Shown here: one piece after another, positions 12,125 to 14,410 of the stretch
Numbering within the stretch: position 1 is the stretch's first letter
Layout: every line of letters begins with the position of its first letter
Source: Patescibacteria group bacterium
GTDB taxonomy: Bacteria; Patescibacteriota; Patescibacteriia; Patescibacteriales; JAQVLT01
DNA: 36,996 nt
NCBI GenBank assembly: GCA_028704015.1
Contig: JAQVLT010000003.1
Location: 1 to 36,996 of the forward strand
Direction of reading: 5' to 3'
Made by a program: the position numbers and the translations under genes
The notes under the pieces: model-generated
Told to the model about the DNA's origin: nothing
Database searches by the model: none
The model's input: the letters and a program-made list of their open reading frames with translations, nothing else

Positions 12125-13951
12125 CTATCGCAATTTTATTCCTAGTTCTTTTAATTGTTTTTCCGACACATCATTTGGTGAATCCATCATCACATCGCGG
12201 CCCTTGCCGTCTTTGGGGAAAGCGTAAATATCGCGGATTGAGTCCCAGTCATTTAACACCATGAGAATGCGATCAATGCCTGGAGCATTTCCACCATGAG
12301 GCGGCGCGCCGTATTCAAAAGCGCGAATCATGGCGCCGAATCTTTGATCAACTTCTTCTCTTGGATAACCGGCGAGCTCAAACGCTTTGTACATAATTTT
12401 CGGGTCGTGGTTGCGAATGGCGCCGCTAGATGCTTCAAAACCGTTTAAAACTAAATCAAACTGATATGCCAAAATTTCCAACGGCTCATGCGTTTCCAGC
12501 GCTTTCATCCCGCCTTGCGGCATAGAGAAAGGATTGTGGCCAAAATCAACGTGTCCCGGCTCAATTTCCGACATTTGGTACATTGGAAAATCAACCACCC
12601 AGCACCAAGCAGCTTTATTTTTATCTTTGAGTCCGAGCTTCTCGCCGCACGCATTGCGCACCGCGCCCAAACTCAGGCAAACTGTTTCCCATTTATCCGC
12701 GCCAAAAAATATTATGTCGCCGGCTTTAGCATCAACTGCTTTAACAATTTCTTCAATTAAACCACCTAACATTTTTACCGGTACTCCAACAACTTCATAC
12801 GATTTTGTATTAGAAACATAAGCTCCTTCTTTTTTATTCTCATCAAACTGCTCAACTTTTACCCAAGCCAAACCTTTAGCTTCTTTGCTTTTGGCGATTT
12901 CAGTTAATTCATCAATTTCTTTACGGCTAAACTTCGCGCCGCCGTCAACTTTCAAAGCATGAACCACGCCGCCTTTTTTAACCGCGTCGGCAAAAACCGA
13001 AAAACCGCAGCCGACCACCATTTCGGTAATCGGTTTTATTTCCAAATCAAAACGCAAATCCGGCTTGTCCACTCCGTACTTTTCCATTGATTCACGCCAA
13101 GGAATTTTTCTAAATCTGCCATTTTCATCCAAACCGACAATTTTTTTATTACTAAATTTTTTCGTAATTTCCAGCCAGAGCGGCTCCATAACTTTAAAAA
13201 CATCTTCCTGCTCCACAAAACTCATTTCCATATCTAATTGATAAAATTCTCCATAATGCCGGTCAAGACGGGAATCTTCATCGCGAAAACAAGGCGCGAT
13301 TTGAAAATATTTATCAAGCCCGCCCACCATCAAAAGTTGCTTGAATTGTTGCGGCGCTTGCGGCAGAGCGTAAAATTTCCCCGGATACAAACGAGACGGG
13401 ATCAAAAAATCACGCGCGCCTTCCGGCGAAGAATTAGCGAGAATCGGAGTTTGCACTTCAATGAATTCGCGTTCGCGAAAATAATTTCTGATGTGGTTGA
13501 TGAATTCCGCTTTGGTTTTGAGCATTTCCTGAATCTTGGGGCGGCGCAAATCCACGAAACGGTATTTCAAACGAATTTGCTCATTAGCTTCTCCTGACTT
13601 TTCTTCTTCCAAGCTAAACGGCGGAGTCTTTGATTGATTGAGAATTTTCAGATCGTCAATTTCCACTTCAATTTCTCCGGTCTTTAATTTTTTATTAATC
13701 ATATCATCCGGTCGGCCAACAACCTTGCCAGTTGCCTCTATTACCCATTCATCTCGCAATTTATCTGCGTCTTTATAGGTTTCTGCGTTGATTTCGGGAT
13801 TAAATTTTATTTGCGTCAAACCATAGCGATCGCGCAAGTCAATAAAGATCACGCCGCCATGATCGCGCCGGCTATGCACCCAGCCGCACAAAGTGACTTT
13901 TTCTCCGACTGATTTTTTACTTAATTCTCCGCAAGTGTGTGTTCGTAACAT
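12125..13951 (-). CDS. aspS: Aspartyl-tRNA synthetase (bacterial type)
   Basis: Charges tRNA-Asp with aspartate. The 608 residues show the OB-fold anticodon domain (CGWVHSRRDHGGVIFIDLRDR near 21-42), motif 2 (CFRDEDSRLDRHYGEFYQLD), the bacterial GAD insertion (about 300-420) and motif 3 (GAPPHGGNAPGIDRILMVL) near the C-terminus. The His in RRDHGG, where E. coli-type discriminating enzymes have Leu, is the state seen in non-discriminating AspRS that also charge tRNA-Asn; this is inference from the family literature. A T-box leader precedes the gene (14072-14375). A spacer of about 120 AT-rich bases separates the terminator stem from the ATG. Confidence 0.96.
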   Translation of the reverse strand: MLRTHTCGELSKKSVGEKVTLCGWVHSRRDHGGVIFIDLRDRYGLTQIKFNPEINAETYKDADKLRDEWVIEATGKVVGRPDDMINKKLKTGEIEVEIDDLKILNQSKTPPFSLEEEKSGEANEQIRLKYRFVDLRRPKIQEMLKTKAEFINHIRNYFREREFIEVQTPILANSSPEGARDFLIPSRLYPGKFYALPQAPQQFKQLLMVGGLDKYFQIAPCFRDEDSRLDRHYGEFYQLDMEMSFVEQEDVFKVMEPLWLEITKKFSNKKIVGLDENGRFRKIPWRESMEKYGVDKPDLRFDLEIKPITEMVVGCGFSVFADAVKKGGVVHALKVDGGAKFSRKEIDELTEIAKSKEAKGLAWVKVEQFDENKKEGAYVSNTKSYEVVGVPVKMLGGLIEEIVKAVDAKAGDIIFFGADKWETVCLSLGAVRNACGEKLGLKDKNKAAWCWVVDFPMYQMSEIEPGHVDFGHNPFSMPQGGMKALETHEPLEILAYQFDLVLNGFEASSGAIRNHDPKIMYKAFELAGYPREEVDQRFGAMIRAFEYGAPPHGGNAPGIDRILMVLNDWDSIRDIYAFPKDGKGRDVMMDSPNDVSEKQLKELGIKLR

Positions 13952-14071: not shown

Positions 14072-14120
14072 TAAAAAACTCGTCCTTAAATACCAAAAAA
14101 CATTGATATCTAGGGACGAG
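14072..14120 (-). terminator. T-box-controlled terminator of aspS
   Basis: Minus strand CTCGTCC / GGACGAG (14114-14120 with 14079-14085) with a long AT-rich loop, followed by TTTTTT. The bases CCCT next to the left arm can pair instead with AGGG of the T-box, forming the antiterminator. Confidence 0.8.
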
Positions 14121-14375
14121 CCTTTTGTTTTCCAAATATTTGGAATAAATGGTCCGTGGTGCCACCCTTCTTTAGTTGAAAGTTATAAAGTAAAAAGTTA
14201 TAAACCAATTAACTATTCAACCGCTCTTTACAGCTATTACGGGCTTACCCGGCGAATTCTACTCCCTAGTACCAAACGTAGTGCTATGGTTTCTTTTCGC
14301 GCCGTTCTTCTCCGTAGTTTTAACGAAGGAGAAATGCTCTGGTGTCAGCCAAAGTATAACGGCTTTATTTATTGT
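14072..14375 (-). promoter_or_regulatory. T-box riboswitch upstream of aspS
   Basis: The T-box consensus is present as AGGGTGGCACCACGG at 14154-14168. TGGCA can pair with the 3' end GCCA of an uncharged tRNA with discriminator G, which fits tRNA-Asp (and tRNA-Asn). A terminator follows (14072-14120) that excludes the antiterminator. The 5' part folds into a closing stem GCCGTT / AACGGC (14358-14363 with 14301-14306) that encloses two hairpins: CTTTGG-CTGACA-CCAGAG (14337-14354), whose loop holds GAC, the Asp codon, followed by A; and TTCTCC / GGAGAA (14308-14333). A canonical stem I with an internal specifier loop was not recognised. A stem GTTGAA / TTCAAC near 14181-14222 may be stem III. 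When tRNA-Asp is uncharged, aspS would be read through. Confidence 0.85.
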
Positions 14376-14381
14376 GTTTAT

Positions 14382-14410
14382 ATTATAGAAAAAAAATAAA
14401 AATTAGTCAA
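14382..14410 (-). promoter_or_regulatory. Promoter of the T-box-aspS transcript
   Basis: Minus strand TTGACT (14405-14410), 17-base spacer, TATAAT (14382-14387). Predicted RNA start near 14375. The -35 touches the U-tract of the preceding terminator. Confidence 0.75.

Follow-up and report, generated by a model that had tools for sequence, protein, structure and literature searches.

A T-box leader with its own promoter and terminator precedes aspS

The region at positions 14072-14410 on the minus strand of our window (the whole 36,996-nt stretch of DNA analyzed here, from a Patescibacteria bacterium) lies upstream of aspS (12125..13951, minus strand), which encodes an aspartyl-tRNA synthetase of 608 amino acids with Pfam tRNA-synt_2, GAD, and OB domains; it scores 776 bits with the NCBIfam aspartate--tRNA ligase model, whose cut-off is 443. 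In a first-pass annotation, it had been read as a T-box riboswitch with an Asp codon in a hairpin loop. The locus raises the question of whether this leader is indeed a T-box, which tRNA it reads, and by what kind of aptamer.

Our analysis confirmed the region as a transcriptional T-box riboswitch before aspS, with a promoter, a UGGCACC antiterminator, and a terminator. The Rfam T-box model RF00230 matched across the whole leader with 36.3 bits (E value of 1.5e-6 in a 506-base stretch). The gathering score of RF00230 is 93 bits, an operational cut-off of a class I model and not a structural feature; a scan at that score did not detect the leader, and standard annotation would therefore miss it. 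The leader folded with a z-score of -3.59, and none of 100 shuffled sequences was equally stable. A leave-one-out model, built from relatives with the window sequence excluded, recovered the element in the window with 40.0 bits and an E value of 4.5e-7 (next best, 0.47). Although it detects the element, this model alone does not locate the specifier hairpin correctly, because this leader carries an extra Stem I hairpin.

All elements of the leader described here lie on the minus strand. A sigma-70-type promoter (TTGACT-17-TATAAT, 14382..14410) matches the consensus at 11 of 12 positions and predicts a transcript start at about 14375, just 5′ of Stem I. A separate terminator at 14440-14419 ends the upstream gene, so that aspS constitutes its own transcription unit. 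In the minimum free energy (MFE) fold, Stem I (14301..14363) is closed by a helix of GCCGTT (14358-14363) with AACGGC (14301-14306) and encloses two hairpins, exactly as the first-pass annotation had described. The first, CTTTGG-CTGACA-CCAGAG (14337..14354), displays the Asp codon GAC (14344-14346) followed by A at 14343; the second (14306..14332) is missing from compact relatives and has a similar form in locus L029. Alignment of relatives placed Stem II (14252..14300, base GCGAA/TTCGC), the S-turn strands of which, AAGAA (14291-14295) and AGTAGAA (14257-14263), are almost invariant in relatives. It also placed the Stem IIA/B pseudoknot CGGGTAAGCCCGTAATAGCT (14232..14251), in which CGG (14249-14251) pairs with CCG (14240-14242) and AGC (14243-14245) with GCT (14232-14234).

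Stem III (GTTGAA.../...TTCAAC, 14175..14221) and the antiterminator (14112..14168) were supported by both the MFE fold and the RF00230 alignment. The 5′ side of the antiterminator, AGGGTGGCACCACGG (14168-14154), consists of AGGG (14165-14168), the bulge TGGCACC (14158-14164), and ACGG (14154-14157), and its 3′ strand is TCGTCCCT (14112-14119). The intrinsic terminator (14073..14120) comprises a stem at 14120-14079 and a run of six T residues at 14078-14073. Its 5′ arm, CTCGTCCCT, contains the antiterminator 3′ strand, and the two structures are mutually exclusive. The antiterminator is the MFE structure of its stretch, with a 7-nt bulge and -13.7 kcal/mol, and the terminator fold reaches -23.0 kcal/mol. 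At the level of sequence comparison, the fold, the codon, the match of UGGC with G73 of tRNA-Asp, the promoter, and the overlap of antiterminator and terminator are established.

The specifier hairpin is conserved in related aspS leaders

The GTDB family holds only this genome, and we therefore moved the comparison to the order and the phylum. RF00230 matches were present in 84 of 111 genomes of the same order, just 2 of the 84 above the gathering score. The first-pass annotation knew of no well-described T-box in CPR genomes; the leader is, however, no isolated case. We collected 17 leaders before aspS or AspRS-like genes, 16 of them within the GTDB order and one (L035) taken from a genome collection. 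Thirteen could be aligned over the aptamer (alignment A2). Those omitted were L162 and L171 (differing 5′ part), L013 (large Stem II insertion), and L014, in which the specifier hairpin and pseudoknot are present and Stem II is apparently absent.

AAC-A or GAC-A forms the end of the specifier loop in all 13 leaders of A2. Under the fixed structure, 95 % of the cells were paired and 17 of 20 pairs showed two-sided changes; all six pairs of the specifier hairpin carried such changes, and the first three pairs of the Stem I closing helix covaried. The covariation score was 0.591, compared with 0.304 in shuffles and at most 0.265 in slid controls, all of which collapsed, although the slid control favors a structure that was derived from the same sequences. 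A free scan for a codon followed by a purine in hairpin loops was weak for aspS alone, as shuffles reached 10 of 17 (GAC or AAC), and the case is therefore built on where the codon stands in the alignment and on its match to the gene.

A terminator 5′ arm containing the antiterminator strand was found in each of the 17 aspS leaders. In 37 of 42 leaders, a promoter (at least 9 of 12 consensus matches) ended 3-35 nt 5′ of Stem I (shuffles: mean 6.7, maximum 13), which excludes a long upstream Stem I for most of them. Most Patescibacterial AspRS homologs fetched by identity (about 54-72 % identical) had no such leader, indicating that its presence is patchy.

The loop codon follows the downstream gene across the phylum

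A covariance model (R1) was built from A2 without the UGGN core; its training set contained neither AUC nor GUC. Among 380 genomes spread across the phylum, R1 matched 73 at an E value of ≤0.001, and the best 30 loci were read for codon and downstream gene. The loop codon suited the downstream synthetase in 29 of these 30, with a maximum of 21 in 20,000 permutations: AUC stood before ileS (9/9), GUC before valS, and GAC or AAC before AspRS genes. The downstream genes carried the NCBIfam names ileS, valS, non-discriminating aspartate--tRNA(Asn) ligase, and aspS; at three loci, a valS-like frame lies second downstream and was named from its sequence alone. In the one exception, L286, the model misplaced the position, since the leader has a hairpin CTTCGG-ATAATGTCA-CCGAAG with GUC. 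In an alignment of the phylum loci (A3), 98.4 % of the cells were paired and 16 of 17 pairs showed two-sided change, figures biased by the fitting of A3 to the model. A UGGN-like core lies downstream of most R1 loci. In the ileS/valS leaders L268, L270, and L272, the antiterminator 3′ strand has no obvious overlap with the following U-tract hairpin, and several such leaders of the phylum may differ in their expression platform.

The same correspondence was seen before other genes of the order, the thrS and glyS labels being assigned by clustering and sequence reading and not by a profile search. All 45 thrS leaders carry UGGA, and in 42 of them a hairpin loop presents ACC with a purine after it (in shuffles, 7.5 on average and no more than 14). 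The window itself contains a tRNA-Thr(GGU) at 1955-2028 whose discriminator, U73, matches the UGGA of all 45. This genome also has a second T-box, before glyS (L002 1501-1770; G000:C15:78768-79037, minus strand), with the hairpin GAGGG-ATATTGGCA-CCCTC showing the Gly codon GGC, the core UAGA-UGGAACC, and its own promoter and terminator; its Rfam score is only 22.5 bits. The placement of GAC as specifier, offered in the first-pass annotation as an inference, was thus borne out: aspS leaders of the order retain both the hairpin and the codon, and the codon changes with the gene throughout the phylum.

The aptamer belongs to the ultrashort Stem I type

As in other T-boxes, the leader combines an unpaired cognate specifier followed by a purine (GAC-A before aspS) with a UGGN bulge whose N matches the discriminator (AGGG-UGGCACC-ACGG with UCGUCCCU; tRNA-Asp with G73). 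The specifier sits in the terminal loop of a short Stem I, and Stem II with its S-turn (AAGAA/AGUAGAA) is followed by the Stem IIA/B pseudoknot CGGGUAAGCCCGUAAUAGCU, an arrangement typical of class II T-boxes with an ultrashort Stem I. In contrast to class II control of translation by sequestration of the ribosome-binding site, the expression platform here is a terminator.

The Patescibacterial aspS-leader model also found T-boxes in 18 of 296 Actinobacterial genomes drawn evenly as a sample; 16 lie before ileS-like genes (read by eye) and present AUC in the same six-base loop. No match was obtained in seven single genomes (three Streptomyces and four Clostridia). Since one model finds both, we assign the aptamer to the known ultrashort Stem I type and do not regard it as a new invention. 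The compact specifier in a terminal loop suggested by the first-pass annotation therefore stands as to its placement, but it has a precedent. Ultrashort Stem I ileS T-boxes are known from Nocardia farcinica and Mycobacterium tuberculosis (PDB 6UFM, 6UFG), and their structures and the roles of S-turn and pseudoknot have been described (PMC7583486, PMC10651847). The Actinobacterial and Patescibacterial elements share the short Stem I, the six-base terminal loop with the specifier at the same place, the S-turn Stem II, the Stem IIA/B pseudoknot, and the UGGN core. However, the described Actinobacterial elements read Ile and control translation, whereas the Patescibacterial ones read Asp or Asn, plus Val, Ile, Thr, and Gly before other genes, and the aspS leaders end in transcription terminators (17/17). 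Some Patescibacterial leaders, including this one, further differ by extra Stem I hairpins.

It is very unlikely that the leader is instead a standard class I T-box with a long Stem I, a specifier elsewhere, and GAC in the hairpin by chance. Clostridial aspS leaders and other Firmicutes class I elements (RF00230) share with it the UGGCACC antiterminator and the overlapping terminator, and the Rfam class I model aligns over its full length, imposing a Stem I on the region. This alignment nevertheless leaves most of Stem I unmatched, and the search yielded no normal long Stem I. The long Stem I of class I, with its internal specifier loop and elbow-binding (IDTM) module, is absent, the promoter and terminator place the transcript start directly before the compact Stem I and leave no room for a longer one, and the codon at the hairpin position follows gene identity. 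The compact model, moreover, gave no match to the Clostridial class I aspS T-boxes. The impression of the first-pass annotation that the 5′ part is no standard Stem I thus proved correct.

Other T-box forms were encountered alongside. Two Actinobacterial loci (L300, L312) have the loop codon AUG before a homocysteine biosynthesis protein-like (DUF39-like) gene, with a terminator, and could be short T-boxes that read Met and act at the level of transcription. In Trp-type T-boxes of the order (L012, L020, L023, L026, L115, and L133; before trpS, trpB, and others), which were excluded from the comparison, the 5′ part differs and comprises two hairpins. They carry UUGGG within an internal loop, where the specifier UGG seems to lie, and a conserved GGUCUUUGCG...GAAGACC hairpin, after which comes CCUCCGUAAYCAUAGGAU. 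T-boxes above the Rfam cut-off (L004, L005, and L114; about 106-109 bits) occur near acetyltransferase-like genes in two genomes of the same order, G009 and G016, the latter with three T-boxes inside about 8 kb; these may be ordinary long-Stem-I types, perhaps acquired.

tRNA-Asp versus tRNA-Asn

A tRNA-Asp gene of this genome with anticodon GUC and discriminator G73 was found through RF00005 (L238, 382-456), so that the antiterminator bulge fits the discriminator G as the first-pass annotation had expected. G73 is also present in every tRNA-Asp and tRNA-Asn gene that was read in related genomes, and the 3′ end therefore does not separate the two tRNAs. The discriminator-facing core of the 17 aspS-type leaders is UGGC in 11 and UGGU in 6; UGGU meets G73 just as a wobble, which counts against the tRNA-Asp reading.

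We consider it extremely unlikely that the aptamer of this leader senses tRNA-Asn rather than tRNA-Asp in vivo, although the AspRS here would also have to charge tRNA-Asn: gatB is present in the genome, and no AsnRS exceeds the family cut-off. The codon of the leader is nonetheless GAC, which at the third anticodon base (36) fits GUC rather than GUU. Among the aspS leaders of 16 genomes, GAC and AAC occur eight times each. All eight AAC leaders are in genomes without AsnRS over the cut-off, and the four genomes with AsnRS over the cut-off all have GAC (hand-computed chance, 70/1820 = 0.04); gatB is present in all 16, in 15 over the cut-off. Where AspRS and GatCAB make all Asn-tRNA, the aspS switch can likely watch tRNA-Asn, a pattern that we treat as a lead only, because the genomes are incomplete and related. 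The Clostridium acetobutylicum aspS/gatCAB T-box reads Asn. Like the Patescibacterial AAC leaders, it puts aspS under a tRNA-Asn-reading T-box; its architecture is class I, whereas the leader studied here is compact and reads GAC.

Proposed mechanism

Collectively, these data argue that the leader is very probably a tRNA-Asp-responsive transcriptional T-box. Another attenuator (a leader peptide or protein-binding leader) or a plain intergenic terminator is hardly credible, because the strong terminator by itself could be read that way but the conserved UGGN core, the covarying stems, and the gene-matched codons would be left unexplained.

For the tRNA-Asp-responsive T-box, we infer binding, sensing of charging, and the direction of control as follows. 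The short Stem I would display GAC in its six-base hairpin loop, where the anticodon GUC of uncharged tRNA-Asp would pair with it and U33 could face the A after the codon. The free GCCA end of the tRNA would pair with UGGC of the antiterminator bulge and so keep CGUCCCU from the terminator, allowing transcription of aspS. Charged tRNA would be unable to pair in this way, and transcription would stop at about 14073.

Discussion

Surveys have located T-boxes in a small number of phyla, above all Firmicutes and Actinobacteria (PMC2494555). According to a review (PMC7583486, section 6.2), those that act on transcription generally depend on a long Stem I, which contacts the tRNA elbow, for fast capture of the tRNA. 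The leaders described here are an exception to that requirement. Within an incomplete library of mainly open papers, we found no study that links T-boxes in this sense to CPR, Patescibacteria, or Parcubacteria. On the basis of open papers, the new elements are Patescibacteria as hosts, the Asp, Asn, Val, Thr, and Gly codons, the extra Stem I branches, and the coupling of a short aptamer to a transcription terminator. On balance, we slightly favor a phylum-wide Patescibacterial set of tRNA sensors in which an ultrashort aptamer without an elbow module would be fast enough for transcription and the aspS switch would alternate between Asp and Asn with the presence or loss of AsnRS.

The Rfam cut-off conceals most such elements, which we found before several synthetase genes across Patescibacteria. 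They widen the codon range of the short aptamer beyond Ile to include Asp, Asn, Val, Thr, and Gly. A terminator-controlling T-box without an elbow grip makes the kinetic argument for a long Stem I testable and, in bacteria with reduced genomes whose gene regulation is hardly known, would offer a direct read-out of the tRNA that limits them.
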